In this document: in pieces, positions 32,348-54,374 of the stretch
How positions within the stretch are numbered: position 1 is the first letter of the stretch
How the letters are laid out: each line of letters starts with the position of its first letter
NCBI GenBank assembly: GCA_017405845.1
Contig: JAFQZQ010000041.1
Coordinates: 1-64,000 of the forward strand
Length of the DNA stretch: 64,000 bases
Direction: 5' to 3'
Source of the DNA: Mogibacterium sp.
GTDB lineage: Bacteria > Bacillota > Clostridia > Peptostreptococcales > Anaerovoracaceae
Position numbers and translations under genes: made by a program
Notes under the pieces: generated by a model
The model's database searches: none
What the model saw: only the letters and a program-made list of their open reading frames with translations
Told to the model about the DNA's origin: nothing

Positions 32348-33319
32348 TTATTTGTCTTCCATAAGATGGCATGCAACGATATGGCCCGGAGCCATTTCCC
32401 TTGCAACCGGCATCTCATTGAAGCATCTTTCCGTAGCAAATTCACATCTGCTTGCAAATCTGCAGCAGTTCTTAGGATTGATCGGGCTCGAGATCTCGCC
32501 CTTAATAGGTATGCGTCTGTTTTCCTTGGCCTTGTCAGGATCCGCTTCAGGGATCGACGAGAGAAGCGCCTTTGTATAAGGATGCATCGGATTAGAATAC
32601 AGCTCTTCTGACGTAGCTGTTTCTACCAGTGTACCAAGATACATTACTACTACTCTGTCTGAAAGGTACTTTACTACTGACAGGTCATGCGCAATGAACA
32701 GATATGTAAGTCCCAGATTATCCTGAAGCTCGTTGAGCATGTTGAGCACCTGAGCCTGGATGGATACGTCCAGAGCTGAAATCGGCTCATCACAGATAAT
32801 GAACTCAGGATCGACAGAAAGCGCTCTTGCAATACCGATACGCTGTCTCTGTCCGCCGGAGAACTCATGAGGGAATCTCGACATGTGATCCTTGTTGAGT
32901 CCGACCGTTTTGAGGAGTTCCTCGACTCTTGCCTCGATCTCGCTGTTTGACTTGCCCTGAAGCTTAAGTCCTTCCCCGACGATCTCCTTGACAGTCATAC
33001 GCGGATTCAGCGACGCATACGGATTCTGGAATATCATCTGCACGCGGTGGCAAAAATCCTTTTGCTCCTGCTTCGTCAGCTTTGTGACATCCTTGCCGTC
33101 GAAAATGACCTGACCGCTTGTAGGCTCATATAGTCTGATGAGGCATCTGCCTGCAGTGGACTTTCCGCAGCCTGACTCACCTACAAGTCCGACAGTTTCA
33201 CCCTTATAGATGTCGAACGAAACTCCGTCAACAGCCTTCAGAGTAGCATGTCTGCCTACCTGGAAGTACTTACAGAGGTCTTTGACCTGAACGAGAGGTT
33301 CTGCATTATAATCTACCAT
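32348..33319 (-). CDS. oppF: Oligopeptide ABC importer ATPase, OppF type
   Basis: A 323-residue ATPase of the OppF/DppF type. Walker A GESGCGKST, signature FSGGQRQR, Walker B FIICDEPISALD, and the C-terminal oligopeptide-transporter extension with a cysteine cluster (CCRFASRCEFATERC) are present; that cluster is typical of Opp/Dpp ATPases and in some members binds an iron-sulfur cluster. Start overlaps the oppD stop by one base (TAATG). It powers peptide uptake together with OppD. Confidence 0.93.
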   Translation of the reverse strand: MVDYNAEPLVQVKDLCKYFQVGRHATLKAVDGVSFDIYKGETVGLVGESGCGKSTAGRCLIRLYEPTSGQVIFDGKDVTKLTKQEQKDFCHRVQMIFQNPYASLNPRMTVKEIVGEGLKLQGKSNSEIEARVEELLKTVGLNKDHMSRFPHEFSGGQRQRIGIARALSVDPEFIICDEPISALDVSIQAQVLNMLNELQDNLGLTYLFIAHDLSVVKYLSDRVVVMYLGTLVETATSEELYSNPMHPYTKALLSSIPEADPDKAKENRRIPIKGEISSPINPKNCCRFASRCEFATERCFNEMPVAREMAPGHIVACHLMEDK

Positions 33320-34347
33320 TATTTCACATCTCCTTTCGTCCTTTTGAATTCTGTATCAGGTGCCATCTCATGCTGGAGCCAGCATCTTGTCATGTGCTCG
33401 TCCGAGAGCATGTATTCTTCTGGCGGATACTGATTGCATACATCCATGCAGTAGTCGCATCTTGCAGCAAACGGACATCCTACCGGCGGCGAGAACAGAT
33501 CAGGCGGTGTTCCTTCGATTGGTGAAAGCTTCTCGCCTCTGTTTGTCTCGAGCCTTGCGATGGAATGCATCAGTCCGCTTGTGTAAGGGTGCGCGGTCTC
33601 ATAATAAATTTCTCTTACGGTACCCTTCTCTACGATCTTGCCGCCGTACATTACGACTACTCGGTCGCAGATCTTGGCGATAACACCGAGGTCATGAGTG
33701 ATCATGATGATCGATGTTCCCAGTGTCTCCCTGAGTTCGAGCAGAAGCTCAAGTATCTGAGCCTCGATGGTTACATCGAGTGAAGTCGTCGGTTCGTCGC
33801 AGATGATAACACTTGGTCTCGATACGAGAGCTATTGCTATCATGACACGCTGCTTCATACCACCGGACAGCTCATGAGGATACTGGTTGAATCTCTTCTC
33901 TGTATCGGAGATGCCGACCAGCTTCATAATCTCGATAGCTTTCTGCTTAACCTCCTGCTTGGAGATTCCCTCTCTGCCATGGAAGACTTCCATGATCTGC
34001 TTTCCGACCTTCATTGTCGGGTTCAGTGATGTCATAGGGTCCTGGAATACGAATCCTATCTCACCGCCTCTGATTTTACGGATAGCTTTGTTATCCATCT
34101 CGAGGATGTTTTCACCCTTGTAGATGATCTCTCCTCCTTCGAAGAAACCCGGTGGCTCAGGATTGAGCCTGAGAATGCACTGAGCGGTAACGCTCTTTCC
34201 GCATCCGGACTCACCTACGATACCGAGCACTTCTCCGGCGCGTACATCGAAGCTGACATCACGTACAGCCTTGACCTCTCCGCCGTATGTCTTGAAGGAG
34301 TATACAACATTCTTTAATTCAAGAATGGTTTCTTTCTTTTCTGCCAT
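33319..34347 (-). CDS. oppD: Oligopeptide ABC importer ATPase, OppD type
   Basis: A 342-residue partner ATPase with Walker A GESGCGKSVTAQ, signature LSGGMKQR, Walker B VIICDEPTTSLD and a C-terminal CPFAARCDYCMDVC cysteine motif like that in OppF. Lies 14 bases after oppC with AGGAGG upstream. OppD and OppF together form the heterodimeric motor of the importer. Confidence 0.94.
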   Translation of the reverse strand: MAEKKETILELKNVVYSFKTYGGEVKAVRDVSFDVRAGEVLGIVGESGCGKSVTAQCILRLNPEPPGFFEGGEIIYKGENILEMDNKAIRKIRGGEIGFVFQDPMTSLNPTMKVGKQIMEVFHGREGISKQEVKQKAIEIMKLVGISDTEKRFNQYPHELSGGMKQRVMIAIALVSRPSVIICDEPTTSLDVTIEAQILELLLELRETLGTSIIMITHDLGVIAKICDRVVVMYGGKIVEKGTVREIYYETAHPYTSGLMHSIARLETNRGEKLSPIEGTPPDLFSPPVGCPFAARCDYCMDVCNQYPPEEYMLSDEHMTRCWLQHEMAPDTEFKRTKGDVK

Positions 34348-34361
34348 GATACTCCTCCTTT

Positions 34362-35285
34362 CTATTCAGTTCCTCTCAACTTTGGATCGACTGCGTCACG
34401 CAGACCGTCGCCGAGCAGGTTGAGAGCCAGCATTGTAGTACAGATGATGAGAGCCGGAATAGCTACTTCATGCGGATGTACTCTCAGATATGCAATACCT
34501 TCCTTCGCCAGGATACCCCAGCTGCACCTCGGAGGCGCGATTCCGAGTCCGATATATGACAGGAATGCCTCCTGGAAGATAGCGCCCGGGATAGCAAGGC
34601 AGAGATTTGTTACAAGCATGCCCACGATGTTCGGGATGATATGCTTGATGATGATTGCAAAATCTGAAACTCCGAGCACCTTTGCAGCCATTACAAAGTC
34701 CTGCTCTTTGAGTCTGTATACCTCGCCTCGTACGAAACGGCAGGTGCCTATCCATCCGACCACGCACAAAGCTACGATCAGCGGCGCAACGCCTTTTCCG
34801 AGAACCATCATGACCAGGATCGTGATGATCAGGCTAGGTATGCCGTAAAGGATATCTACGATACGCATCACTATCATATCGAGCTTGCCGCCGTAGAATC
34901 CGCAGAAACCTCCGATGACCGCGCCTACACACATATTGATGGTTGCTGCAAAGAGTCCGATTGAAAGCGATACTCTCGCGCCCATCCATGTACGTACCCA
35001 CTGGTCACGGCCCGTTGCGTCTGTGCCGAACCAGTGCGCAGCCGAAGGAGCAGCATGCTGATGTGCTGCGTCCATCGTGGAGAATCCGTACTTGCTCAGC
35101 ATAGGAGCGAATATGGCAAGTAATACATAAACCAGAATAATGCAGAGTCCTACGAACGCTGCTTTATTCTTGCGGAATCTTCTCCATGCGTCCTGCCAGA
35201 AAGACAGAGACGGCCTGGAAATAGTTTCCATCTGTTCTACATTTTTGCCTTTGATGGCAAACATATCTTTATTCAAATCCATCAT
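34362..35285 (-). CDS. oppC: Oligopeptide ABC importer permease, OppC type
   Basis: About 307 residues with an OppC N-terminal domain (first transmembrane helix after SFWQDAWRRFRKNKAAF) followed by five more helices and the EAA-type coupling loop (VRGEVYRLKEQDFVMAAKVLG). I prefer the ATG at 35285 (MMDLNKD), which has AGGTGG 5 bases upstream, to the GTG at 35294 that abuts the oppB stop. It pairs with OppB to form the membrane channel. Confidence 0.93.
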   Translation of the reverse strand: MMDLNKDMFAIKGKNVEQMETISRPSLSFWQDAWRRFRKNKAAFVGLCIILVYVLLAIFAPMLSKYGFSTMDAAHQHAAPSAAHWFGTDATGRDQWVRTWMGARVSLSIGLFAATINMCVGAVIGGFCGFYGGKLDMIVMRIVDILYGIPSLIITILVMMVLGKGVAPLIVALCVVGWIGTCRFVRGEVYRLKEQDFVMAAKVLGVSDFAIIIKHIIPNIVGMLVTNLCLAIPGAIFQEAFLSYIGLGIAPPRCSWGILAKEGIAYLRVHPHEVAIPALIICTTMLALNLLGDGLRDAVDPKLRGTE

Positions 35286-35294
35286 GTCTGCCAC

Positions 35295-36215
35295 CTACTT
35301 CTTTCCTATACGGACACGAGGATCCGCAACACCGTAGAGAATATCTACGATCAGATTTGCTGTAACGAGGAATATACCATAGAACACTGTCATACCCAGG
35401 ATCATGGAATAGTCATTGTTATTTACACTCTCAACGTAATACTTACCCATGCCAGGGATAGCGAAGATAGCCTCAATAACGAAGGTTCCGGTAAGTACCG
35501 AAGCAACGGTAGGTCCCAGTATTGTCATGACCGGCATGATAGCATTCCTTATCTGATGCTTTACTGTTATTCGAGCTTCAGAAAGGCCTTTTGACCTTGC
35601 GGTCTTGATATAATCCTGCGATGTTACTTCGAGCATGCTCGCACGCATGATACGGGATACAGACGCAAGCGTATAGAACGCAAGCGCAGTCGCAGGAAGA
35701 ATCGTGTATTCAAATCCTTTATATAAAGCTACCGGCAGAAGTCCCCACTTGATACCGAAGAAGTACTGCAGCAGAGCTCCCATGATGAAGTCAGGAATAC
35801 TTGTTCCGATTATCGCGATGATAACGCAGAAGAAGTCGATCTTTGTGCCTCTCTTACGTGCGGCGAGGATACCCAGCACCAAACCGAAAGAAATCGCCAG
35901 GCACAGCGCTCTAATACCGAGATCCGCTGAGAACGGGAACGTCTGTCCGATAATGTAATTTACTGTTTTATTGGTGTACTTCATCGAAAATCCGAAGTCA
36001 CCGTGAATCAGATTGCCCAGATACTGGAAGTACTGAACAATCAGTGGTTTGTCGAAGCCATAGTACTTTGTCATATTTTCTATGACCTGTGGAGTCAGCT
36101 TCGGGTTGGTGAACGGTTCTCCCGGCATCAGCCTGGTAAGGAAGAAAACTATGGTCACCAATGCCCAAAGAGTCAATATGGCTGCGATGACACGTTTTAT
36201 TACATACTTTGTCAT
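35295..36215 (-). CDS. oppB: Oligopeptide ABC importer permease, OppB type
   Basis: A 306-residue inner-membrane permease with the family start RVIAAILTLWALVTIVFFLTRLMPG, six helices and the coupling loop RASMLEVTSQDYIKTARSKGL. AGGAGG precedes the ATG. It follows oppA after a 79-base gap that holds a strong hairpin, so permease and ATPase messages are likely less abundant than the oppA message. Confidence 0.93.
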   Translation of the reverse strand: MTKYVIKRVIAAILTLWALVTIVFFLTRLMPGEPFTNPKLTPQVIENMTKYYGFDKPLIVQYFQYLGNLIHGDFGFSMKYTNKTVNYIIGQTFPFSADLGIRALCLAISFGLVLGILAARKRGTKIDFFCVIIAIIGTSIPDFIMGALLQYFFGIKWGLLPVALYKGFEYTILPATALAFYTLASVSRIMRASMLEVTSQDYIKTARSKGLSEARITVKHQIRNAIMPVMTILGPTVASVLTGTFVIEAIFAIPGMGKYYVESVNNNDYSMILGMTVFYGIFLVTANLIVDILYGVADPRVRIGKK

Positions 36216-36294: not shown

Positions 36295-37941
36295 TTATTC
36301 TGCTACGTCAGCGTATGCCCAGTCGATATTGATGCTGAATGAGTAGAATGTTACATCCTTCATCTTAGGGCTCAGCAGGTAGGACTGATTCCTTGCCTGG
36401 AGAGGTACCCATGCACCATCCTCGATCAGGATCTGCTCAGCTTCGTTCAGAAGATCCATTCTTGCGTTAGGATCATCAACTTCCTTCATAGCTGCATCGA
36501 GCTTAGCGTCGAAGTCCTTGTTGCCATAAGGTGTGTACCAGTTGATGTCTGATCTGAAGAGGTTGAGGTATGTTGTAGGGTCGTCGAAGTCAGGGCCCCA
36601 TCCTGCGTATCCGATCTCATAGTCGAACTTAGGATATACTTCGCCGTAGATATCAGCGTAAGTTACCTGACGGATGTTAACCTTGATGCCGAGAGCGTTC
36701 TGCCACTGCTCCTGCAGTACCTCAGCGATCTTCTTGTTGGACTCAGCGTCTGTTGTTACGAACTCGATCTCGATCTGGGAAGGATCAGAGATGTTGAGTG
36801 CCTTCATCGCTGCATCGAGATGCTCCTTAGCCTTATCTAAATCGCCTTCCATAGGGTATGCATATGAATCAACATCATATGTCTCGCCGTATGTCTTGCC
36901 GTCCTTGCCGGAGAGGCCAGGGAAGCAGAGAGCGTTGTAAGGATTGTAGAGTCCGCTGTTAGCAAGCTGGTTGTACTCAACTCTGTTGAGTGCATAGTTC
37001 AGAGCGAGTCTGAAGTCCTTGTTAGCCCATACAGGGTTGTCACTGTTAGGGTTGATGTAGCAGTAGTCTACGTTACCATTGAGGTATACGCCGTAATCAT
37101 CGTTGTCCTTGTAGTTCTCAACAACAGCGTTGTCAAGTCTTACAAAGTCGAGTTCGCCGTTCTCATACATAGCGAGCTGTGTATCAGGCTTCTCAATGTA
37201 GTTGAGCTCAACTCTGTCGAGCTTGATGTTGTCTGCATCCCAGAACTCAGGGTTCTTCTCGAATACATACAGGTTGTTCTCTGTTGATGTGAGAACGAAT
37301 GGTCCGGAGTATACGTTCTTGTCAGCTGTAGCAGCAAACTCGTCTCCATACTGCTCAACGATGTCCTTACGGAGCGGAGCAAGGTTCGACTGCATGCCGA
37401 GAGCCGAAAGAAGTACTGTCATAGGCTGTGAAAGCTTGACTTCCAGAGTCTTGTCATCGATAGCCTTGATACCGAGTTCACTTGGATCCTTCTCACCTGC
37501 TTCAACAGCAGCTGCGTTCTCTACGCAGATTGTGTCGAGGAACCATGAATAAGGTGAACCGACGTTAGGGTCTACCAGTCTCTGCCAGCTGTAAACGAAG
37601 TCGTTTGCAGTGATAGGCTGTCCGTCACTCCATTTTGCATCACGGAGATGGAATGTATAGACTGTACCATCCTCAGAGATGTCCCAGGATTCAGCGATAC
37701 CAGGAGTAACTTCACCGCCTGTGTTACGTGTGAGTCCCTCTGTGATAGCATGCTGGATCTCGTTATCTCCGATGCTGTTGCCCTTTGTAGGATCGAAAGT
37801 AGTAGGCTCAGTATTTACAGCATACTTGAAAACCTTCTCTCCTCCAGCCGAGCCACTGTCGCTACCCGGTGTGCTGCAGCTTGCAAGAGTTGCAAGAATC
37901 ATGATTGCAACCATAGCAAGAGCAAATAGTTTCTTCTTCAT
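36295..37941 (-). CDS. oppA: Peptide-binding lipoprotein, OppA type (SBP family 5)
   Basis: A 548-residue extracellular binding protein. Signal peptide MKKKLFALAMVAIMILATLASC with lipobox LASC gives a lipid-anchored Cys at residue 22, followed by a Ser/Gly linker. The body has the SBP_bac_5 features FDPTKGNSIGDNEIQHAITEGLTR, AESWDISEDGTVYTFHLRD and KWSDGQPITANDFVYSWQRL. Specificity cannot be read; in this neighbourhood Pro/Hyp-containing peptides are plausible. It has AGGAGG and its own promoter (38026-38054), preceded by a TetR-like palindrome. Confidence 0.94.
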   Translation of the reverse strand: MKKKLFALAMVAIMILATLASCSTPGSDSGSAGGEKVFKYAVNTEPTTFDPTKGNSIGDNEIQHAITEGLTRNTGGEVTPGIAESWDISEDGTVYTFHLRDAKWSDGQPITANDFVYSWQRLVDPNVGSPYSWFLDTICVENAAAVEAGEKDPSELGIKAIDDKTLEVKLSQPMTVLLSALGMQSNLAPLRKDIVEQYGDEFAATADKNVYSGPFVLTSTENNLYVFEKNPEFWDADNIKLDRVELNYIEKPDTQLAMYENGELDFVRLDNAVVENYKDNDDYGVYLNGNVDYCYINPNSDNPVWANKDFRLALNYALNRVEYNQLANSGLYNPYNALCFPGLSGKDGKTYGETYDVDSYAYPMEGDLDKAKEHLDAAMKALNISDPSQIEIEFVTTDAESNKKIAEVLQEQWQNALGIKVNIRQVTYADIYGEVYPKFDYEIGYAGWGPDFDDPTTYLNLFRSDINWYTPYGNKDFDAKLDAAMKEVDDPNARMDLLNEAEQILIEDGAWVPLQARNQSYLLSPKMKDVTFYSFSINIDWAYADVAE

Positions 37942-38121: not shown

Positions 38122-39672
38122 CTACTTTGTAAGATCTTCAGAAATCGACTTCAGATACATGAAGTTAGTCAGATAGTTCGGTGTACCTGTCTTGTGATCT
38201 GTACCCGAGAGATTGAATCCTCCGAACGGATGCTGCAGAACAACAGCTGCGGTGCACTTGCGGTTGAAGTACAGGTTTCCTACGTTGAATTCATTCTTTG
38301 CCTTGATCACGTTCTCTCTTGTTTCGCTGTATACGGAGCCGGTGAGACCGTACTCTGTCTGGTTTGCGATATCGAGAGCTTCATCGAACGAGTCTACTGC
38401 GATTACTGCTACTACAGGTCCGAAGATCTCCTCATTAGCTACGCGGTCCGTGCGGCTGATTCCATCGATGATTGTAGGATCAATGAAATATCCCTTCTCG
38501 TCACTGTATGTGCCGCCGTATACGATGTTTCCTTCGCCTCTTCCGATCTCAATGTATTTTGCGATCTTGTCGAATGCTTCCTTGCTGGATACAGGGCCGA
38601 TGGTCTTGTCATCTCTGCCTGCACCCTGATTAGCCTTGAGAGCCTTGGCTTCTTCGATGAGAGCCTCAACGAATTCATCGTGAACGTCTCTCATAACGAT
38701 AGCTCTGGAGCATGCCGAGCACTTCTGTCCCTGGAATGTGAATGCCGAGCTTGCAACTCCCTGAGCAGCTTTCTTTACATTAGCTGAAGAGTCGATGATG
38801 ATGGCGTTCTTTCCGCCCATCTCTGCAACTACTCTCTTGAGCCATTTCTGACCAGGATTTACCTTTGCTGCTCTCTCATAGATGCGGCATCCGACTTCCT
38901 TGGAACCGGTGAAGTTGATGAATCTTACGAGAGGATGGTCTACGATAAGATCGCCGATATCCGAACCTGCGCCAGGCAGGAAGTTGATGACGCCTGCAGG
39001 AATTCCGCACTTCTCCATAACTTCAAAGAATTTGAATGCCGAGATCGGAGTGTTGGATGCCGGCTTGTTTACGCTGGTGTTTCCTGTGATTGCAGCAGCG
39101 ATCAGCATGTTTGCGAAAAGACCGACAGGAAAGTTCCATGGCGATACTGTTGTGCCAACTCCCATTGGGATGTATACGCACTTGTTGTATTCCTTTGTCT
39201 GGATGCAAGGGATACCCTTATCGAGTTCCTGCATGTGTACGCAGTAAGAGTTGATGAAGTCGAGAAGCTCGCAGAGCTCGCCGTCTGCTTCGCCCCAGTT
39301 TTTGCCGCTCTCCTCAACGTTCCATGCATCGAGATAGAATCTGTTCTCGTCAAGCAGCTGAGCCAGTTTGCGCATGCAGCGTATTCTCTCGTCAAGAGAA
39401 GTATTCTTCCATGTCCGGAAAGCCTCGTGCGCTGTCTTTATAGCCAGGTCGCACTGCTCTGCACTTGCCGAGCTGGAATATCCGAGTACTTCCTTAGTGG
39501 ATGGATTGAGAGATTCGAACTTCTTCTCTGTGAAGATCCTCTCACCGCCGATGATAAGCGGGCATGTGAGACCTTTCTCTTCATCTACCTGCTTAAAAGC
39601 CGCAAGCATCTTTTCCCTATTCTCAGGAATGCTGAAATCGACCTCAACTGCGTTGGCAAATCCTTTGTACAT
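38122..39672 (-). CDS. Delta-1-pyrroline-5-carboxylate dehydrogenase (RocA type)
   Basis: A 516-residue aldehyde dehydrogenase of the P5CDH/RocA type, oxidising P5C (as glutamate-gamma-semialdehyde) to glutamate with NAD(P)+. Motifs: SPWNFPVG, NFTGSKEVG (cofactor loop), VAEMGGKNAIIID with the general-base Glu, FTFQGQKCSACSR with the nucleophilic Cys near residue 320, and EEIFGPVVAV. The C-terminal substrate region HPFGGFNLSGTDHKTG fits P5CDH rather than general ALDHs. AGGAGG lies 8 bases before the ATG. No fused proline dehydrogenase is present; the HypD product of this locus is exactly its substrate, which makes it the link from hydroxyproline to glutamate. Confidence 0.9.
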   Translation of the reverse strand: MYKGFANAVEVDFSIPENREKMLAAFKQVDEEKGLTCPLIIGGERIFTEKKFESLNPSTKEVLGYSSSASAEQCDLAIKTAHEAFRTWKNTSLDERIRCMRKLAQLLDENRFYLDAWNVEESGKNWGEADGELCELLDFINSYCVHMQELDKGIPCIQTKEYNKCVYIPMGVGTTVSPWNFPVGLFANMLIAAAITGNTSVNKPASNTPISAFKFFEVMEKCGIPAGVINFLPGAGSDIGDLIVDHPLVRFINFTGSKEVGCRIYERAAKVNPGQKWLKRVVAEMGGKNAIIIDSSANVKKAAQGVASSAFTFQGQKCSACSRAIVMRDVHDEFVEALIEEAKALKANQGAGRDDKTIGPVSSKEAFDKIAKYIEIGRGEGNIVYGGTYSDEKGYFIDPTIIDGISRTDRVANEEIFGPVVAVIAVDSFDEALDIANQTEYGLTGSVYSETRENVIKAKNEFNVGNLYFNRKCTAAVVLQHPFGGFNLSGTDHKTGTPNYLTNFMYLKSISEDLTK

Positions 39673-39747: not shown

Positions 39748-41391
39748 TTATTTATTGAAATATACGCGATAACACTCTTTATCTATAAGAAATAGCGGCT
39801 TAAGGCATTCCCCTTTGTCAGATACGTCTGCTAGAAGGTATGGTCCGCGGGCTATACAGTAATATCGGCTGTCAGATGCAGGTATCTCCCGGATATCTAC
39901 CGGCAGCCGGAGAGTCACAATCTCATCCTTTTTAAGCCTGCCGAAGCTTAAATATCCCTGCTCAGCCTCAGGGAAGCTATCCCTCGCCCACACCGGTATC
40001 CTCACAGCAAGCTCCCTCTTCATGTCAGCACACGCGCTGATCTCGAAAGTACCGTCTTCCGAGAAACTGACACTCAGCTTTTCTTCATCATCGAGCGTCG
40101 ATGAGACAGGCAGATCTACCCTTACGACATCGTCCTCGTACGAGTATATATCAGCCATGAATCTGAAGCGGCTCTCCATTCCCGTACCATGGCAGCAGCT
40201 GTTTTCTTCAGTTTCGTAGTGCTTGCAACTCCCCGGGGCAAGAGGCAGAAAGTATGTAGTGCCTCCGTCCGCGCAGTGGCTCCAGGACATTAGGATATGA
40301 TTGAAAAGAGTGAGCTCGTAATAATCCATAAGCCCGCTCCGCGCTGACTGCTCATACTCAAAGAGCCTTGAGGTGAGTCTGAGCATGTTGACGCTAGCAC
40401 AGCTCTCGGCAGTCTTTTCTGTCAGATAGCCGCATTCGCTGTCCGGAGCACGGAAGCGTTCCTCATCACCCGTTCCACCTATTGAATAACAGTGGTGCCC
40501 GGTGACTATGCTGTGAAAATTGCGGGCTATATCGAGATACTTCGCGTTTCCTGTTGCAGCATAGAGCTCTACCGCACCTATTATCTGCGGGATATGCTGG
40601 TTGGCGTGCATATTATCGAGCTCATCCCTGCCGGCAAGCATCGGATCAAACAGTCTTGCGTTCTCAAACATCATTGCGGCTTCAAGGTGCTTTTCACTGC
40701 CGCTGATCCTGTGAAGCCTCACAATAGTGCCTATCATTCCTCCGTATTCTCCGGCAATATACGTGTCCCACATCTGCGCTCTAAGCTCTTCACTCAGGCG
40801 TGAAAGGCGCTCATATACCCAGTCTCCTAATGGCAGCAGAATGTCCAAAGCCTCGGTTATATCCGCAAGCTCATATGCATCCAGAAGCCCTGACATTATC
40901 TTGTCGAGAGTGTAGTATGGCGCCCATATTTCCGGGTATTTGGTAAGCTTCTCCAGCAAGTCGAACTGCTCTTCATCATATGCGCTCAAGAAGCCCGGAT
41001 GTACCCGTCCGCCTGCAGCAAAGGCCGTCTGGCATTCAGCAAGTCCGTCAACCAAAGCAGAAGCTTTTGCCCTGAGCCTTTCATCGCCTGTGACTGCATA
41101 CGCCAGAGACAGCCCGGACAGGTAATGCCCGGTCGTATGCCCTTTCAGCTTGCACTCCGGTGCATCCCAGCCGGTCATAGGCTGTGCACCACCTGTCGGC
41201 ACGCCGGCAGCAACGCGGAAATTGTACAGCATGCTGTCTGTATCCTGAACAAGCAGATACCTGAGCATGTTCTGCTGCCCTTCATAGAAAGCTGTGCCCG
41301 GCATTAATCTGACACTGCAAAGCGGAGGATGACTCCTCCGCTGCTTTACAGCATCCACTGATATTGATTTGTTTACACCGGATACTGTCAT
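39748..41391 (-). CDS. GH127-like beta-L-arabinofuranosidase (DUF1680)
   Basis: A 547-residue (alpha/alpha)6-barrel protein of the DUF1680/GH127 type. Family blocks include WDAPECKLKGHTTGHYLSG (residues 75-93), FYEGQQNMLRYLLVQD and GGTGDEERF. The zinc and catalytic set of B. longum HypBA1 (Glu, Cys, Cys-Cys) seems intact: Glu310/311, C331 in AESCASV, C399-C400 in NSCCHGTGM, with one of the paired cysteines acting as nucleophile. No signal peptide, so it would act in the cytoplasm. HypBA1 removes beta-L-arabinofuranose from hydroxyproline-linked arabinosides of plant extensins. The gene begins 6 bases after the proline iminopeptidase gene, hinting at a joint role on Hyp glycopeptides. Other GH127-clan specificities cannot be excluded. 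Confidence 0.82.
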   Translation of the reverse strand: MTVSGVNKSISVDAVKQRRSHPPLCSVRLMPGTAFYEGQQNMLRYLLVQDTDSMLYNFRVAAGVPTGGAQPMTGWDAPECKLKGHTTGHYLSGLSLAYAVTGDERLRAKASALVDGLAECQTAFAAGGRVHPGFLSAYDEEQFDLLEKLTKYPEIWAPYYTLDKIMSGLLDAYELADITEALDILLPLGDWVYERLSRLSEELRAQMWDTYIAGEYGGMIGTIVRLHRISGSEKHLEAAMMFENARLFDPMLAGRDELDNMHANQHIPQIIGAVELYAATGNAKYLDIARNFHSIVTGHHCYSIGGTGDEERFRAPDSECGYLTEKTAESCASVNMLRLTSRLFEYEQSARSGLMDYYELTLFNHILMSWSHCADGGTTYFLPLAPGSCKHYETEENSCCHGTGMESRFRFMADIYSYEDDVVRVDLPVSSTLDDEEKLSVSFSEDGTFEISACADMKRELAVRIPVWARDSFPEAEQGYLSFGRLKKDEIVTLRLPVDIREIPASDSRYYCIARGPYLLADVSDKGECLKPLFLIDKECYRVYFNK

Positions 41392-41397
41392 AATATT

Positions 41398-42288
41398 TTA
41401 CCTGTCGTGTGCATTCATCCATTTGATGAGCTCTTTGCAATAGTCATCATGTCTGTCTACAAAGCACGTATGCCTTGCTCTCTCCCAGAGTATCCACCAT
41501 GAACCCGGTATGCCGTCGTTCATGGTCTTTGCAACCAGAGGCGAGCAAAGATCGGATATACCGCTCATAATGAGTGTCGGTATCTCAATCTCGCCGAGGC
41601 GGTCAATGTACTCAAAGTCCTTCAGTGTACCTGTCGGGGCAAATTCATTAGGTCCCCAGCCGCACACATAAGCCTCACTGCCTGCCCTTTTAGGCCTCGA
41701 ACAGCACTCCGGCACATCATCACCAAGCCAGTAATTGCAGTATCTGTCCATGTATTCTTCGACAGCTGCGTCATACGCCTCTCCCGTGAAATCACCCGTC
41801 TCGAGAGCCTTGTTGATCGCATCCTGCATGTCAGGAGGCATCATTTTAATCCTCCTGAGACCTTCTCTTTCCCAAAGGCTGCTCGAAGGGTGACCGCTGC
41901 TTATGATAAACGACCTGATGCCTTGCGGCTTACGGTCTACTGCATATGCAATCTGCTGCATTCCGCCCCACGACTGACCAATGATGTGGCACTCGTCAAG
42001 GCTGAGATGCTCTCTTATCGCCTCGAGCTCGTCGAGCCAGACCTCCTTGTTCCACAGCTCAGGATGACCATCAAGGTAGGAGTTGCCGCAGCCTATCTGA
42101 TCGTACATTACTATCATGCGGTCATCATCGTCAGCCAGATTATCCAGTACCTCAAAGTAATTGTGAGTGGATCCCGGTCCTCCGTGCAGGCAAAGCAGCG
42201 GGGCTTTGTTGCCCTTCTTCTCTCCTGTTATTCTATAGTAGGTCTTATAACCCATGAACGGCATATAACCTTCTCTGATTTCAGCCAT
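41398..42288 (-). CDS. Proline iminopeptidase (S33 alpha/beta hydrolase)
   Basis: A 296-residue S33 peptidase that removes N-terminal proline from short peptides. LHGGPGSTHNYF forms the oxyanion region (residues 34-45), GQSWGG holds the nucleophile S106, SGISDLCSP the Asp and ARHTCFVD the His. MYDQIGCGNS is typical of proline iminopeptidases, as is the helical cap (residues 135-215). Cytoplasmic. Ribosome site GAGGTG precedes the ATG. It lies between the Xaa-Pro dipeptidase and the GH127 gene; together the peptidases could take apart Pro- or Hyp-containing oligopeptides. Confidence 0.9.
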   Translation of the reverse strand: MAEIREGYMPFMGYKTYYRITGEKKGNKAPLLCLHGGPGSTHNYFEVLDNLADDDDRMIVMYDQIGCGNSYLDGHPELWNKEVWLDELEAIREHLSLDECHIIGQSWGGMQQIAYAVDRKPQGIRSFIISSGHPSSSLWEREGLRRIKMMPPDMQDAINKALETGDFTGEAYDAAVEEYMDRYCNYWLGDDVPECCSRPKRAGSEAYVCGWGPNEFAPTGTLKDFEYIDRLGEIEIPTLIMSGISDLCSPLVAKTMNDGIPGSWWILWERARHTCFVDRHDDYCKELIKWMNAHDR

Positions 42289-42321: not shown

Positions 42322-43410
42322 TTATTCCTCCGGCACCACGATCATCTCTTCCTTAGGGTAATTGTTAAGCGTTACACAGCCATCCTCTGTTATGAGAACT
42401 ATGTCCTCGATACGGACTCCGATGCCCTCGTCATAGAGATAGATGCCCGGTTCAACCGAGAAGCACTGTCCTACTTCGATAATCTCATCGTTTGCGGACG
42501 ATACATCACCTGTTTCATGGCATTCCATTCCAATGGAGTGACCTGTTCTATGCGTGAAGTATTCGCCAAAGCCCTTCTCTGTAATATAGTCTCTTGCGGC
42601 TTTGTCCACATCGCTCATCTTTGCGCCAGGCTTCGCAGCAGCTATTCCGCGCTTGTTAGCCTCGAGTACTATGTTGTAGATTTCTTTCTGTCTGTCGCTG
42701 TACTCTCCGATAAATACTGTTCTGGTCATATCCGAGCAGTAGTTCTTCCATACACCGCCGATGTCAAGGATGACGCAGTCGCCGTGCTTGCCCTTGCTGT
42801 CATCTGTTATATGATGAGGGTCTGCAGCTCCTCTGGCGTATGCCGTTATAGGATCGAATGAACGGTCCTCAAAACCCTCTTCCTTGAGGAGTTCAATGCA
42901 TTTAGCATTAAGTTCTTTCTCGGAAAGGCCTTTAACGACCCATGGGATCAGTTTGCCCATTACACTGTCGAGCATCGCTCCGGATTCCTTCATCAGCTTC
43001 TGCTCTTCTTCGCTCTTGATCTGACGCACCTTGTCAAAGATCACCGATCCGTTGCAGTAAGCGCTTGCAGCACCGAGTTCCTGCAGTCTCAGCAGGAATT
43101 TTGAAGGCAGATTCTTGTCGATGCCCAGAGCTGCGTCTTTATCTGTGAACTGTGCCATTACAGCGACACCGTCATCAATATCATCGTAATATGTTACAGG
43201 CACTCCCAGATCTTCGTTCTGAGGGAAAAGCCTGTTCATGACAAAGTGATTATCCCCGTTGGTATTGATATAAAGAGCGTGGAATCTCTCGCCCGGGAAT
43301 ATCCACTTTTCGATAAGATAGAAAATTGAGACCGGGTCTGAGACGATCATCTGCGAGAGACCCTTCTCCTGCATTTTTGCTGTGATTCTGTTAAGTTTGC
43401 TCTTATCCAT
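42322..43410 (-). CDS. Xaa-Pro dipeptidase/aminopeptidase (M24B)
   Basis: A 362-residue two-domain M24 peptidase. N-terminal creatinase-like domain (1-125), then catalytic domain with ligands DIGGVWKNYCSDMTRT (two Asp), RTGHSIGMECHE (His), FSVEPGIYLYDEGIGVRIED (two Glu); all five standard ligands are present, in contrast to the M24 protein at 31027-32268. Start at 43410 (MDKSKLNRI) follows GGAAAGAGAG. A longer frame to 43569 would run into the upstream permease gene and is discarded. Prolidases of this type also accept Xaa-Hyp, which would release the free hydroxyproline that HypD uses. Confidence 0.9.
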   Translation of the reverse strand: MDKSKLNRITAKMQEKGLSQMIVSDPVSIFYLIEKWIFPGERFHALYINTNGDNHFVMNRLFPQNEDLGVPVTYYDDIDDGVAVMAQFTDKDAALGIDKNLPSKFLLRLQELGAASAYCNGSVIFDKVRQIKSEEEQKLMKESGAMLDSVMGKLIPWVVKGLSEKELNAKCIELLKEEGFEDRSFDPITAYARGAADPHHITDDSKGKHGDCVILDIGGVWKNYCSDMTRTVFIGEYSDRQKEIYNIVLEANKRGIAAAKPGAKMSDVDKAARDYITEKGFGEYFTHRTGHSIGMECHETGDVSSANDEIIEVGQCFSVEPGIYLYDEGIGVRIEDIVLITEDGCVTLNNYPKEEMIVVPEE

Positions 43411-43435
43411 CGTAATCTCTCTTTCCAGACAGAAA

Positions 43436-43465
43436 CCGGGACACTCTGAATATTCAGCATCCCGG
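43436..43465 (-). terminator. Hairpin between the permease and Xaa-Pro dipeptidase genes
   Basis: CCGGGA...TCCCGG arms with an inner CTGAATATTCAG palindrome. On the minus strand the hairpin ends in TTTCTGT, a weak U-tract. Partial termination at the end of the ABC-transporter genes is likely. Confidence 0.5.
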
Positions 43466-43493
43466 CTTCCTCCATTTTTGATTAGTTTTCTGA

Positions 43494-44846
43494 TTAGCCG
43501 GCGATCACTGTCTGATCTGATGCAGCTTCTTCCGGCATCTTCAGCTGAGCTCTCTTGTTTGCACGCCATACGTACAGTCCGAGTGACAGGCCGATAACGC
43601 CGTATACCATGAATGTACGGAAGTATTCACCGAGAGCCGCCTGACCAAACAGGGCTTTACCGATTTCAGGGCTCAGGATGAACATCGCATGGAAGAGAAG
43701 GCATCCGGTGATGGACTGACCGATGGTGGCCTTGTCTACCGAAGCTCCTCCTACCAGGATGGCAGCAACCGAGAAGTAACCTACGTTGTTATGCGCTGTG
43801 TATGTGTTCAGTGTTCCCATGTTCTGGAGATAGATTACCATTCCCCATGCAGCAAGAACAGTTGAAATGATAGTCGCGATTACACGTGTACGGTTAACGT
43901 TGATTCCGTTAGCCTCAGCGATAGTCTGGTTCATTCCGCATGAACGGAAATCCTGACCGAGCTTTGTATTCATGATCCATTTGATGAATACTGCCAGTAC
44001 GGCAACTACCAGCATCAGCACTACAGGTACGTCACGAACCTTGTTAAGAACGCTGCCGGTAACGAGCTGGATGATAAAGTATACCATCACAGCAGCGCAG
44101 AGTACTGTATAAACAGCAAACGCGAGAACGTTAAGCTTGGTCGAACGTCCGTCTGCCTTAGGCTTGCGCAGGAACTGGTTCCAGAGAAGGAACAGCAGTA
44201 TGACTGCGGATGCGCCTATCATGAACGGAACAAACGGTATCTGAAGAATCTTGTCGAGAGAGTAAGTTACACTTCCCATGTCGACGCTCATACGGATACC
44301 AACGCCATCATACAGGATCATCGGGTGGCTGAGCGCTACAGGAATGACAGCTCCGATAACGAACAGTACGATGAACTGATAAACACCGTTACCGAAGTAG
44401 CCTACAATCAGTGAGGCTATCATTTCCTGTCCTTTGGTCTTGTTATAAAGCGTTCCTGTGAGCCATCCGATCAGAACTGCGATAGGCAGCGAGATTAGGA
44501 TCATCAGCATGAAACCGGTGAGGCCGCCGAATGACTGTTCATTGGCAGCTATACCCCAGTAACGTACTGCTATGACTGCGAGCTGACCCGCGATAGCTCC
44601 TACAACGATACCGAAGTTGAGTCCCAGACCGGCAACTACCGGGATGATCAGCGACAGGATCAGGAAGATATTACGGTAGAATCTGTTGCACAGCTCCGTA
44701 AAGAATCCGTCCATTGTGAGATTCTGTGCTGTCAGAAGGCCCAGGATGATGAAGGCCCAGAACAGAATGGTTACGATATGGTCGAGTATCCATGTTTTAA
44801 GGTCGAATGAAGGCTGACCTGTGACCTTTGCTATCCAATTATTCAT
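43494..44846 (-). CDS. ABC importer permease (branched/BMP-like type), second subunit
   Basis: A 450-residue permease with about ten hydrophobic helices, of the RbsC/YufPQ class (BPD_transp_2). Characteristic blocks are GLNFGIVVGAIAGQLA, GLTGFMLMILISLPIAVLIG, KLGQDFRSCGMNQTIAEANGINVNRTR and VAAILVGGASVDKATIGQ. Longer than most members at its N-terminal and C-terminal ends. The start overlaps the preceding permease stop by one base (TAATG). The partner permease and the double ATPase lie directly upstream, so the three form one transporter. Confidence 0.9.
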   Translation of the reverse strand: MNNWIAKVTGQPSFDLKTWILDHIVTILFWAFIILGLLTAQNLTMDGFFTELCNRFYRNIFLILSLIIPVVAGLGLNFGIVVGAIAGQLAVIAVRYWGIAANEQSFGGLTGFMLMILISLPIAVLIGWLTGTLYNKTKGQEMIASLIVGYFGNGVYQFIVLFVIGAVIPVALSHPMILYDGVGIRMSVDMGSVTYSLDKILQIPFVPFMIGASAVILLFLLWNQFLRKPKADGRSTKLNVLAFAVYTVLCAAVMVYFIIQLVTGSVLNKVRDVPVVLMLVVAVLAVFIKWIMNTKLGQDFRSCGMNQTIAEANGINVNRTRVIATIISTVLAAWGMVIYLQNMGTLNTYTAHNNVGYFSVAAILVGGASVDKATIGQSITGCLLFHAMFILSPEIGKALFGQAALGEYFRTFMVYGVIGLSLGLYVWRANKRAQLKMPEEAASDQTVIAG

Positions 44847-45895
44847 TAACGGTCACCTCCACTCTTTACTTTTGTCAGTGCGTACAGGATTACACCATTC
44901 TGGATGATGATACGCATGATATCCGAAAGGTCTGTTCCTGTGAACAGCTGGTTCATTACCGGCATAGCCGTTGTCATCAGGCCCTGGAAGAGGCACACAC
45001 CTATCAGTACGTTAGGGATGCTTGCCTTGCTTGCAGTAGCGCCTCCTACGAGTACGGCAGCAACTGCAGGGAACGCCATGTTCAGCGGTCCGTTATACAG
45101 CTGGGCATATCCGTAACCCTGTGAGTAAATGATAATACCGATACCGGCTAAAATTGTTGAAATGATATTCGCGATAACGCGGTTACGGTCAATGTTGAGA
45201 CCGGATGCTTCAGCGAATCTCGGGTTCTGTCCTCCCGCGAAGATGGCCATACCTGTCTTTGACTGGAAGAACATCCATACCAGGAAGCAGAACAGAGCAA
45301 ATACGAGCATCATACCGAATGGTATCGCAACGCCTGCAATCTCGATCTTCAGAAGATCAGAGATGATTCTGCTGGCGTTGAAGTTCTTGAACTGAATCGT
45401 TTCTCTGAGTCCGTTTCCGAGCATCCAGCCCATCTTACGGTTGGAGAACGGAATGGCGAGCCAGAAAATGTTGAAGAACGCTACGATAGAGAATCCGGAG
45501 TATGTAGCGATGGTCATCTCCGCGCCTTTTACAGCGTTCATCAGCTTGCCGTAAAGCCATCCGAGGATCGTGCAAAGCACTACGCTGAGAAGGAGCGATG
45601 TGAAGATGAGGAACCATCCGCTGAAGTCGAACTGCATGCAGATCATGAGAGCCATGAGTCCGCCTTCGATACCTACAGGCAGAGCGAAGTTAGGACCTGT
45701 ACCCGACTTGATGGCAGGCACCATCGCGAGTACGAGAAGACCGTTCATGCCTACACGGTTCAGGATATCGGTGAGCAGTGTCGGTATGGACTGACCCTGT
45801 ACACCGGCTGTTATCAGCAATACCAGCAGCAGTAATCCGACCGCAAAGGTTGGAATGCCGATCCTGTTGATCGCTTTTCCTATTGAATTAGTCAT
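44846..45895 (-). CDS. ABC importer permease (branched/BMP-like type), first subunit
   Basis: About 349 residues, same BPD_transp_2 family as its neighbour (NFALPVGIEGGLMALMICMQF, FAGGQNPRFAEASGLNIDRNRV, VAAVLVGGATASKASIPN). I choose ATG 45895 (MTNSIGK), which has AGGAGGTGG 5 bases upstream and overlaps the ATPase stop by 8 bases; an in-frame start at 45913 lacks a site. Two different permeases plus one double ATPase indicate a heterodimeric channel. Confidence 0.9.
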   Translation of the reverse strand: MTNSIGKAINRIGIPTFAVGLLLLVLLITAGVQGQSIPTLLTDILNRVGMNGLLVLAMVPAIKSGTGPNFALPVGIEGGLMALMICMQFDFSGWFLIFTSLLLSVVLCTILGWLYGKLMNAVKGAEMTIATYSGFSIVAFFNIFWLAIPFSNRKMGWMLGNGLRETIQFKNFNASRIISDLLKIEIAGVAIPFGMMLVFALFCFLVWMFFQSKTGMAIFAGGQNPRFAEASGLNIDRNRVIANIISTILAGIGIIIYSQGYGYAQLYNGPLNMAFPAVAAVLVGGATASKASIPNVLIGVCLFQGLMTTAMPVMNQLFTGTDLSDIMRIIIQNGVILYALTKVKSGGDR

Positions 45896-47507
45896 TCGGA
45901 CCACCTCCTGCATTCATAGAAGCTTTGATTGCTTCTTCTTTTGTCATGCCGGACATCATCATGCCGTAAACTTCATCTGAATCTGTAGGTGACAGTTCGC
46001 CGGCGACTTTACCCTCGCATATGATAAGAACTCTGTCGCAAATGCTTCGGAGTTCTGCAAGTTCAGAACTCGTCATGATAATTGTCATGCCCTGCTCTTC
46101 AGCCAGAGTCTTGAGAAGATCGAGTATCAGCTTTTTAGCTCCGATATCGATGCCTCGTGTAGGCTCGGATACCAGCAGCAGATCAGGATCAAGCGCAAGA
46201 GCCTTTCCGACGCAGACTTTCTGCTGGTTACCACCTGACAGTGCGCCTGCATTCTGTGCTATGGAAGTGCAGCGGATGTCGAGGTCCTTGACCATCTTCT
46301 CTGCGTTTGCCTTGATGGCAGCTGTATCTGTAAATGTGAATGGTCCGATTTTCTTTAGGAACTTACCCTGTACCTCCATAGCGTTGAAAGCTATGTTGAG
46401 GTCGATAGGGCTCGTAAGCAGGAGACCTACGCCCTTTCTGTCTTCCGACAGGAAGGCGATTCCCTTTTTCAGCGTCTCGTCTGTTTTGGAGACATCGATC
46501 TTTTCGCCCTTGAACTCGACATCTCCTACTACCGGGTACATGCCCATAAGGCCATTGGCAATACCAAGCTTGCCCTGACCGGCAAGGCCTCCGATACCGA
46601 GGACTTCGCCCTTGCGTACGCTGAATGTTACGCCCTTGACTTCCTCACCCGGCATGTTGACAAGAAGATTATTGACTTTGAGGATCTCCTCGTCGCTGAT
46701 CTTTCGCTCAGTCTCTGAACGATCAAGAGTAAGTGCACGGCCGACCATGAGACGTGCTATCTCAGCGGCTGTGATATTTTTTGTTTCTTCTGTGGCTACC
46801 CACTCTCCGTCACGGAGAACGGTAACTCTGTCGGACAGTCTGATGATTTCATCAAGACGATGGCTGATGAAAATGATACCGATGCCCTGTGCGGCCAGCT
46901 TACGGATCGCATCGAGCAGGTGCTCGGTTTCGCTCTCTGTCAGAACGGCAGTAGGCTCGTCGAATACCAGGAAGCGTATTCCGGTCTTATCGATCTCACG
47001 AGCGATCTCAACGAACTGCATGTGTCCTACAGGAAGGCCATGTACCCTGGTGTACTCCTCGATATCCATGCCCATGGTATCAAGAGCTTTTCTGGCATCC
47101 TGAGCCATGTGTTCGTGGTCGAGTGTCTCAAGGCGCTTTCCGAAAATCTTGGACATAGCCGAGCTCTTCGTGGTCTCACGGTTGAGCTTGATGTTCTCAG
47201 TGATTGTGAATCCCGGTATAAGCATGAATTCCTGGTGCACCATACCGATTCCGGCTTCCATGGCGTCACGCGGGTTCATGATATTGGCATTTTCACCACC
47301 GATACGTACCTCTCCCGTGAATCCACCAGTTTCGTGGATCACCGGCATACCGAACAGGATGTTCATCAGTGTGGACTTACCCGCGCCGTTTTCGCCGATA
47401 AGAGCATGAATCTCGCCAGGACGTACGTCCATGTTGATCCCCTTCAGAACGGCATGACCCGAGTATTCCTTTCCGACATTGATAAATTCAAGAATCCCGT
47501 TGTTCAA
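45888..47507 (-). CDS. ABC importer ATPase with two nucleotide-binding domains
   Basis: A 539-residue RbsA/YufO-like protein. First domain: Walker A GENGAGKST near residue 39, signature region LPVGHMQFVEIAREI, Walker B FLVFDEPTAVLTESE. Second domain: Walker A is degenerate (GLAGQGKLGIANGL, with G-K-L instead of G-K-T/S), signature ALSGGNQQKV, Walker B LLLVSEPTRGIDIGAKK, where the usual catalytic region reads SEPTRG as in most RbsA-type second domains. Start is TTG at 47507, preceded by AAGGGG. Such ATPases energise sugar, nucleoside or autoinducer uptake; substrate here is set by the DUF3798 lipoprotein and unknown. Confidence 0.9.
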   Translation of the reverse strand: MNNGILEFINVGKEYSGHAVLKGINMDVRPGEIHALIGENGAGKSTLMNILFGMPVIHETGGFTGEVRIGGENANIMNPRDAMEAGIGMVHQEFMLIPGFTITENIKLNRETTKSSAMSKIFGKRLETLDHEHMAQDARKALDTMGMDIEEYTRVHGLPVGHMQFVEIAREIDKTGIRFLVFDEPTAVLTESETEHLLDAIRKLAAQGIGIIFISHRLDEIIRLSDRVTVLRDGEWVATEETKNITAAEIARLMVGRALTLDRSETERKISDEEILKVNNLLVNMPGEEVKGVTFSVRKGEVLGIGGLAGQGKLGIANGLMGMYPVVGDVEFKGEKIDVSKTDETLKKGIAFLSEDRKGVGLLLTSPIDLNIAFNAMEVQGKFLKKIGPFTFTDTAAIKANAEKMVKDLDIRCTSIAQNAGALSGGNQQKVCVGKALALDPDLLLVSEPTRGIDIGAKKLILDLLKTLAEEQGMTIIMTSSELAELRSICDRVLIICEGKVAGELSPTDSDEVYGMMMSGMTKEEAIKASMNAGGGPND

Positions 47508-47580
47508 AACGTATCCCCTTTCATTGTCTGTAATTGAAAAGTTGTCTAGTCGGTCTAATCAATCCTCATAAAGTAACGAA

Positions 47581-47608
47581 CAGGGACACCGCATCAGCGG
47601 TGTCCCTG
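47581..47608 (-). terminator. Hairpin between DUF3798 lipoprotein and ABC ATPase genes
   Basis: A perfect 12-bp stem (47581-47592 with 47597-47608) around a 4-base loop, about 46 bases past the lipoprotein stop. The U-tract is poor (TTCGTTACTTTAT). As with oppA-oppB, it probably lowers expression of the membrane genes relative to the binding protein. Confidence 0.7.
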
Positions 47609-47654
47609 CGGTCTTACTTAATCTTGATTATTAAACTTGATTGATCCTAAAGGA

Positions 47655-48902
47655 TTATCTGTCCCTTGTTGGCTCGCCGAAGTTCAGGAATCCCTGAAGA
47701 TATACGAGGTAGTTGTCGAACTTCTCGTGTGAATCCGGATCTTCGTAAGGAACGAGGCTAACCTCTGTGTTGCAGTAATCAGCAAGCAGATCCTGGATGG
47801 TCTGTGTGTCGCACTTGTCAACTTCGCCATTCATCCAGAGGAATGCATACTCTGTGCAAGCTACTGTGTTAGCGATGGAAGCAGGTACACTCCATGTTGA
47901 GAAGTGTCCGCTGAGTCCGTCCTCTTCGAGCTTTGTGTTGATAGCGTCGATTGTTGTCTGGAGACCATTTACAAGATCCTCAGGGCTCTCGATACCAAGA
48001 GCACTCGGGAATCCGTGGTATGGGCTCGGGCAGCATGGGAGTGCATAGTATGCACCGCTGTCATGAACAGCCTCGATCAGAGGAACCTGCATAGCGCAGT
48101 TTGTCGAGAAGAAGCATGTGTCAACTCCGTACTTCTCAACCATCTTTGGAACGTCCTCGAGGATGAACATCTGAGCTCCGGAAACTCCTGCGTCAGAAGT
48201 TGGGTCCGGTGCAGTAGCGTCTACGAACTCGATTCCGAGCTCTTCGCACTTAGCCTTGATGAGGTCACGGCATCCAGCGAGAGGAGCCTGTGCCATGTGA
48301 CGTGGGAAGCTGTAGTGAACGAATGTCTTGCAGCCCATGTCATAAGCCTGCTGAGCGATAGCTGTACCCTTGTTGATCTCGTCGATCGAGAGGATGATGT
48401 CAGCACGCTTAACGATATCGTCAGCATTCTCCTGTGGTGTGCAGTATGCGATCAGAAGATCGTCTTTCTCTCTTGACTCAAGTACTTTGTCGATAGAAGC
48501 GTTCGATCCCGGGCAAGCCTGGTTGATAATGATAGCCTTATACTCAGGGTCTGCACCGTACTTGCTTACTACAGCAACGAACTGCTCCTGCTCTGTCATG
48601 AAGTTGTCAGGCATTACATCGTGAGTAATGCGGTCAGCACCGTATTTCTCAACCATGAAGTCTGCCGAACGGAACTCTTCCTCATTCTGTGAAAGAGTAT
48701 TTGTGATGATAGCGATCTTACCTTCGCTGGCATCTCTTGCAGCCATTACACGCTGCTCGAGCTCACTAAGCTCTGCAGTTGCTTCAGGAGCTTCAGCTGA
48801 TTCTTCAGCTGGCTCTTCCGACTGGCCGCCGCCGCATGCTGTAAGAGCGAATACCATTACCGCTACTACCAGCAGGCTGAGAAACTTCTTGAATCTCTCC
48901 AT
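47655..48902 (-). CDS. DUF3798 lipoprotein, putative substrate-binding component
   Basis: A 415-residue lipoprotein: signal peptide MERFKKFLSLLVVAVMVFALTAC (lipobox LTAC), an acidic Glu/Ala/Pro linker (residues 24-45), then a periplasmic-binding-protein-like fold with KIAIITNTLSQNEEEF, ADIILSIDEINKGTAIAQQA, MGCKTFVHYSFPRH and FFSTNCAMQVPLIEAV. I assign it to DUF3798, whose ligand is undetermined. Start 48902 has AGGAGG 8 bases upstream; the frame extends to 48935 without a ribosome site. Its neighbours are an RbsA-like ATPase and two permeases, so it is very likely their ligand receptor. It sits between the Xaa-Pro dipeptidase side and hypD. Confidence 0.85.
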   Translation of the reverse strand: MERFKKFLSLLVVAVMVFALTACGGGQSEEPAEESAEAPEATAELSELEQRVMAARDASEGKIAIITNTLSQNEEEFRSADFMVEKYGADRITHDVMPDNFMTEQEQFVAVVSKYGADPEYKAIIINQACPGSNASIDKVLESREKDDLLIAYCTPQENADDIVKRADIILSIDEINKGTAIAQQAYDMGCKTFVHYSFPRHMAQAPLAGCRDLIKAKCEELGIEFVDATAPDPTSDAGVSGAQMFILEDVPKMVEKYGVDTCFFSTNCAMQVPLIEAVHDSGAYYALPCCPSPYHGFPSALGIESPEDLVNGLQTTIDAINTKLEEDGLSGHFSTWSVPASIANTVACTEYAFLWMNGEVDKCDTQTIQDLLADYCNTEVSLVPYEDPDSHEKFDNYLVYLQGFLNFGEPTRDR

Positions 48903-48947
48903 AAAATTATCCTCCTTAAGATTATAAATATCCACTTTAAACAGTGA

Positions 48948-54308: not shown

Positions 54309-54374
54309 AATTTTTTCCCTTCTCACCCTTGCGGTTTAGTTCTAACGTAAAAAGCACATAACTTTGACTATATA

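Follow-up and report, generated by a model that had tools for sequence, protein, structure and literature searches.

Introduction

Removal of β-L-arabinofuranose (β-L-Araf) from the hydroxyproline (Hyp) of plant HRGPs is known from Bifidobacterium longum, which possesses HypBA1, HypBA2 and HypAA (GH127, GH121 and GH43, respectively), together with the GH146 enzyme Bll4HypBA1. Two GH146 enzymes, Bll4HypBA1 and XeHypBA1 of Xanthomonas euvesicatoria (GH127 in the original paper), are active on Araf-β-Hyp (PMC10850190, PMC6085000), while for other GH146 members arabinan-derived oligosaccharides (BT0349) or β1,3-Araf (Bll3HypBA1) were reported as substrates (PMC10850190). Catabolism of Hyp itself is known from gut Clostridiales using HypD and P5C reductase, a pathway that has been described for Hyp from the diet and from collagen (PMC7077986). 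HypD has been described as one of the glycyl radical enzymes most abundant in the healthy human gut, and collagen or dietary Hyp has been discussed as its substrate in a paper whose main text does not contain the word "plant" (PMC7077986).

Here we describe a bacterial locus where these two activities may meet. In the window, i.e., the whole stretch of 64,000 nucleotides of Mogibacterium sp. DNA that was analyzed, the gene of a PF07944 glycosidase (GH) lies in one block with genes for HypD, prolyl peptidases and a peptide importer. Sequence comparisons strongly support that this glycosidase is connected with the catabolism of hydroxyproline and peptides, and we consider it likely that the locus imports and degrades arabinosylated Hyp peptides of plant cell-wall glycoproteins, for example extensins.

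Organization of the Locus

The host genome of the window (2.34 Mb, 52 contigs, 94.9% complete) has Mogibacterium and uncultured Clostridiales MAGs as its nearest named relatives, several of which are of sheep or goat gut origin. From 53.0 down to 29.2 kb, the minus strand carries a single co-directional block that runs from a TetR-type regulator through two terminal M24 peptidases. The regulator (52455..53030), which accompanies HypD in other genomes too, is followed by the HypD radical-SAM activase (51450..52373; NF043069, 430 bits against a cut-off of 425) and by HypD, the trans-4-hydroxy-L-proline dehydratase of the glycyl radical enzyme family (49060..51432; NF043068, 1440 bits against a cut-off of 1100). 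All ten residues assigned to catalysis or Hyp binding by mutagenesis or structure in the Clostridium difficile enzyme that were checked (H161, D279, S335, D340, F341, C435, E437, Y451, T646 and G766) are kept, and the HypD that the initial annotation had placed in this locus is thus real.

Downstream of HypD lies an ABC cassette consisting of a DUF3798 lipoprotein (47655..48935), likely its binding protein, an RbsA/XylG-type double ATPase (45888..47507) and two permeases (44846..45913 and the RbsC-like 43494..44846), the second of which is overlapped by the start of the ORF of an M24 Xaa-Pro peptidase (M24c, 42322..43569; profile match). The coupling of a "sugar-type" ABC transporter with a prolyl peptidase suggests that the ligand is unusual. 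Next come the S33 proline iminopeptidase (PIP, 41398..42288), which carries the nucleophile motif GQSWGG and scores 460 bits against the NF045945 equivalog (cut-off 400), and the glycosidase (39748..41391), about 8 kb downstream of the full HypD and activase pair. The TAA of PIP is separated from the ATG of the glycosidase by six bases. The block continues with L-glutamate gamma-semialdehyde (P5C) dehydrogenase (38122..39672; NF002852, 677 bits, cut-off 648), an OppA-type oligopeptide-binding lipoprotein whose orthologue co-occurs with the glycosidase (36295..37941), the OppB, OppC, OppD and OppF components of the peptide importer (32348..36215) and two M24 Xaa-Pro aminopeptidases, M24b (31027..32268) and the long form M24a (29202..30992). 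A simple scan placed terminator-like hairpins on both sides of the DUF3798 gene, so the block may correspond to several transcripts; the same scan saw no such hairpin on the coding strand from M24c to P5C dehydrogenase.

Two further genes deserve mention. A PF01996 (F420-0:gamma-glutamyl ligase-like) gene (53103-54326) is the neighbor of the TetR-type regulator gene, as it also is in two other HypD genomes (L132 and L134; 72-73% identity). A second HypD-like glycyl radical enzyme (G000:C19:119019-121367; 540 bits, below the cut-off) is encoded on the same contig, outside the window at a distance of about 68 kb.

The Glycosidase Belongs With GH146

The glycosidase ORF encodes 547 amino acids without an internal stop and matches PF07944 with 300.6 bits (cut-off 24.9). 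No variation is seen among 30 homologues at E329, C331, C399 and C400 or at E311, which occupies the position of the acid/base Glu, and in the alignment these residues coincide with the Zn/Cys site of Bll4HypBA1, BT0349 and Bll3HypBA1, in agreement with the description of this site in GH146/GH127 (PMC10850190). The protein therefore carries the GH146 signature, a Glu-x-Cys ... Cys-Cys Zn/nucleophile set plus the acid/base Glu, and the initial annotation was right in reporting an intact Glu/Cys/Cys-Cys enzyme six bases after PIP. As we saw no strong hydrophobic segment at its N-terminus, the enzyme is probably cytoplasmic, as had been proposed. Homologues of about 760 amino acids contain an additional atrophied Ig domain (PF20578) that is missing from the Mogibacterium-type proteins; our earlier placement of this extra domain at the C-terminus was discarded, as the Pfam scan locates it at the N-terminus.

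The initial annotation had labeled the enzyme GH127-type. Sequence, profile and fold all led us to reject this membership. In a single-sequence search the best solved relative was the GH146 enzyme BT0349 (203 bits), and HypBA1 was not among the matches at E<=0.001. A profile built from 30 subfamily sequences scored 412 bits for BT0349 and 310 for Bll3HypBA1, as against 90 for the GH127 enzyme Ara127N and 62 for HypBA1. The GH127 C-terminal domain PF20737 was not found in the glycosidase, whereas a true GH127 protein encoded at another locus (L056) does have it. The solved structure closest to an AlphaFold model of the glycosidase (pLDDT 90.9) is that of BT0349 (5OPJ; Z 42.2, rmsd 1.9 Å over 514 residues), with HypBA1 more distant (Z 32.3, rmsd 3.2 Å over 480 residues). 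By these sequence, profile and model-based comparisons the glycosidase belongs with GH146, with a predicted β-L-arabinofuranosidase activity. This relabeling leaves the proposed connection to Hyp unharmed, since XeHypBA1 and Bll4HypBA1, which cleave L-Araf-β-Hyp, are themselves GH146 enzymes.

Placement on the GH146 side is thus clear, but the order among the GH146 references is weakly supported, as a tree calculated without XeHypBA1 has a weak backbone, with long branches that may affect the order of its references. For the comparison of specificities, the Bll4HypBA1 sequence was taken as the other GH146 gene (L095:9315-11858) of the genome regarded as B. longum JCM 1217, which carries a 100% match to Bll3HypBA1. 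The window enzyme scores 260 bits (33%) against Bll4HypBA1 and 174 bits (27%) against the β1,3-specific Bll3HypBA1, while in the alignment its identity to each of the characterized GH146 enzymes compared (BT0349, Bll3 and Bll4) is similar, at about 31-34%. The motifs HANQHIP, GGTG, AESCA and MW-YI-GEYGG are common to the window enzyme and Bll4HypBA1 and are not found in BT0349 or Bll3HypBA1, and the motif IWAPxYT is likewise common to the window enzyme and Bll4HypBA1. We regard this closeness in score and motifs as a lead toward Araf-β-Hyp specificity and not as proof of it.

Gene Neighborhoods of the Subfamily

GTDB species genomes were scanned for the GH subfamily and 80 loci were taken with flanks of up to 10 kb; 20 other PF07944 genes from Lachnospiraceae served as control loci. 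In the pooled count of neighbors, the SDF, POT, ProC and one M24 query were drawn from the subfamily loci themselves, and we base our conclusions on the counts for Opp, M24 and HypD, whose queries came mainly from the window. HypD occurs in the flanks of nine of the 80 loci. Five of these are Mogibacterium-type (L010-L013, L017), while in the four others (L048, L049, L052, L057), which belong to Clostridium, Faecalicatena, Ruminococcus and Muricomes, the genes are arranged differently, as HypD activase, HypD, ProC, TetR, GH and OppABCDF. Faecalicatena contorta (L049) and Muricomes intestini DSM 29489 (L057) are cultured carriers of this set. The two sets fall into separate clades of the GH tree, so that adjacency to HypD is seen in two clades. 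Opp genes lie within 10 kb of the glycosidase gene in 25/80 subfamily loci against 0/20 controls, and identical counts were obtained for M24 prolyl peptidases. Note also that 28 of the 80 loci lack any tested peptide or proline neighbor, that some adjoin ABC permease pairs of a type unmatched by the Opp queries, and that the GH gene lies away from HypD in several relatives, among them a genome of the same genus (G170) and another of the same family (G091).

One might suppose that this is an ordinary locus for unglycosylated, collagen-type Hyp/Pro peptides, in which the glycosidase was inserted by chance and retained for an unrelated reason. PIP, M24, Opp and HypD would indeed suffice for such peptides, and HypD loci without the glycosidase exist. 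However, all five nearest loci (L010-L013, L017) retain the PIP-GH pair, with a glycosidase dN/dS of about 0.06-0.10 (dS being close to saturation) that indicates purifying selection, the window-type Opp accompanies the glycosidase in other families in which PIP is lacking, and Opp or M24 genes were found near none of the HypD loci of 24 GH-less genomes (0/24). We therefore hold the collagen-type explanation to be very improbable, and chance adjacency of the glycosidase was rejected on the basis of the control loci and of the co-occurrence data given below.

Divergence from L010-L013 and L017 is very uneven within the window locus: identities are about 92-100% for HypD, P5C dehydrogenase and Opp, as compared with 81-85% for the activase, about 80% for PIP, 77-79% for TetR and 70-73% for the glycosidase. 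GH36 α-galactosidases, which are common enzymes, adjoin the glycosidase gene in eight other loci. In PMC5371791 and PMC4908140 the Ser of extensins is described as α-galactosylated, with which the GH36 neighbors show a weak fit.

Genome-Wide Co-occurrence

The co-occurrence of GH and HypD across genomes, which the initial annotation had named as a check, was indeed found. HypD above its curated cut-off is present in 40/49 Clostridia genomes that carry the subfamily (a count that took in 49 of 55 candidate loci), as compared with baselines of 24/299 evenly drawn Lachnospiraceae and 16/248 genomes of the window's own family. When the subfamily was delimited in the Lachnospiraceae sample at >430 bits (next match 349), a line set after the scores were seen, all seven GH carriers were HypD-positive, against 17/292 of the others (Fisher p=9e-9), this and the following p-values overstating the independence and strength of the evidence because the counted genomes are samples of related genomes. 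Within the window's own family the corresponding figures are 3/3 and 13/245 (p=2e-4). In two of these three carriers GH and HypD reside on different contigs, and the association is thus not merely one of linkage. The OppA orthologue (E<1e-100), found in seven of the 299 Lachnospiraceae, is present in 6/7 GH carriers and in 1/292 others (p=5e-11), and the single OppA-positive genome without GH is itself HypD-positive. The link between GH and OppA persists among HypD-positive genomes only (p=3e-4). When the five genomes that the scan had already yielded were left out, p was still 7e-5 for GH-OppA and 0.004 for GH-HypD.

Outside Clostridia, HypD was found in 4/24 GH carriers and is absent from those of Paenibacillus, the Lactobacillus group and Buttiauxella; as most non-Clostridia carriers lack HypD, the subfamily also has a HypD-independent use. 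Four Bifidobacterium species (G605, G606, G610 and G611; loci L077, L078, L082 and L083) were unexpectedly found to encode HypD above the curated cut-off, at about 1290 bits.

A variant of the preferred explanation is that free Ara-Hyp, rather than a glycopeptide entering via Opp, is imported as such, for example by the RbsA-type/DUF3798 cassette. In the window the five-gene DUF3798/RbsA-type/two-permease/M24 cassette (42322-48935) lies between HypD and PIP, whereas in L012 (12053-18500) it is located between GH and OppA, directly beside GH. Furthermore, at L031, L034-L036, L038, L039, L041, L043, L046, L050 and L081 the GH gene is preceded by that of a symporter of the SDF family (sodium:dicarboxylate/amino acid), mostly with a divergent AraC regulator, an SDF-GH order that is seen in Paenibacillus, Clostridium and Buttiauxella; a POT peptide transporter is found at other GH loci (L047, L061, L075 and L085). 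The SDF family includes amino-acid transporters, and the SDF and POT proteins are candidates for the uptake of amino-acid glycosides. Against this variant, the cassette is not near GH in L010, L011, L013 and L017, and OppA tracks GH genome-wide in Lachnospiraceae; import of free Ara-Hyp thus appears unlikely, although it deserves some weight.

Substrate and Host Metabolism

The glycosidase could also act on other β-L-arabinofuranosides, such as pectic arabinan, AGP or RG-II oligosaccharides, in which case its adjacency to the peptide and Hyp genes would reflect a shared plant-cell-wall niche and not one pathway. The GH146 membership of the arabinan- and β1,3-Araf-active BT0349 and Bll3HypBA1 (PMC10850190) favors this possibility, as do the permease pairs escaping the Opp queries. 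A shared niche, however, predicts HypD in other carriers of PF07944, and only 1/45 Lachnospiraceae genomes with other PF07944 genes only were HypD-positive; a general link between PF07944 and HypD was rejected on the same count. The empty control loci argue in the same direction. Moreover, a search for L-arabinose catabolism, which the initial annotation had suggested, yielded no match to the L-arabinose isomerase AraA (PF02610) in the 94.9% complete window genome. The two FGGY kinases present are GlpK and an XylB-like protein, and no second PF07944 gene was detected in this genome. Because AraA is missing and the kinases are of these types, the host probably does not metabolize arabinose in the usual way and probably discards it. 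Substrates other than Hyp-arabinosides are consequently rather improbable in our opinion.

Under the preferred explanation, degradation of arabinosylated Hyp peptides, longer Ara2-Ara4 chains would presumably be trimmed outside the cell by other community members, and OppABCDF would take in Hyp-rich peptides still bearing β-L-Araf. The cytoplasmic GH146-like enzyme would then strip β-L-Araf off Hyp, PIP and the three M24 Xaa-Pro peptidases would free Hyp and Pro, and HypD with its activase would convert Hyp to P5C. The latter may be oxidized to glutamate by P5C dehydrogenase, or reduced to proline that would feed D-proline reductase, of which PrdA is present in the window genome. While genes, catalytic residues and cross-genome associations are observed directly, we infer the β-Araf-Hyp substrate, the uptake as glycopeptide and the sequence in which glycosidase and peptidases act. 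The initial proposal that the locus processes Hyp-glycopeptides stands as regards the link to Hyp and peptide catabolism (co-occurrence with HypD and OppA and, in at least two lineages, repeated adjacency to Opp, M24 and HypD), and falls as regards the GH127/HypBA1-like identity of its enzyme. We lean slightly toward a dedicated pathway for plant HRGP (extensin) glycopeptides in anaerobic gut Clostridia, in which a specific Opp, a cytoplasmic GH146 and prolyl peptidases feed HypD, the amino acid being kept and, in the window genome, arabinose discarded.

Comparison With Known Systems

All the enzyme families involved are known, but a predicted intracellular Hyp-arabinosidase of GH146 that is coupled to HypD and to the import of peptides appears to be undescribed in the searchable open literature. 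In that literature, outside which most subscription journals lie, we found no paper joining HypD or glycyl radical enzymes with the plant wall, extensin or GH127/GH146, in line with the initial statement that no pathway of this kind was known. The recurrence of the gene set in other gut bacteria points to plant cell-wall proteins, besides collagen, as a source of Hyp. If this is true, arabinosylated plant wall proteins would constitute a major hidden Hyp supply, for which the unlocking enzyme is now named and can be directly tested, and in herbivore guts the plant cell wall, rather than collagen, would be a main Hyp source for HypD. It would also imply a new role for a glycosidase family associated with sugar release, namely deglycosylation of an imported peptide to reach the amino acid, and the GH-OppA-HypD triad would serve as a genomic marker of plant-glycoprotein feeding.

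With the B. longum system, the window locus would share the removal of β-L-Araf from Hyp of plant HRGPs by a cysteine glycosidase whose Zn site is of the Cys3-Glu type. In B. longum, arabino-oligosaccharides are degraded and imported for sugar, and we found no described link to Hyp catabolism, whereas the window glycosidase is predicted to be intracellular and is encoded in a peptide-import/HypD locus of a host without AraA. XeHypBA1 acts mainly on Araf-β-Hyp (PMC6085000), the predicted substrate of the window enzyme, but it has a signal peptide and belongs to the HRGP-degrading set of a plant pathogen, with no HypD link described. BT0349 offers the nearest solved fold, but shares 32% identity and is part of an RG-I/arabinan locus. 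The HypD and P5C reductase pathway of gut Clostridiales has the same dehydratase and activase, the same P5C product and the same link to proline Stickland metabolism; differently from that pathway as described, the window locus carries alongside HypD a peptide importer, prolyl peptidases, a P5C dehydrogenase and a predicted Hyp-arabinoside glycosidase.
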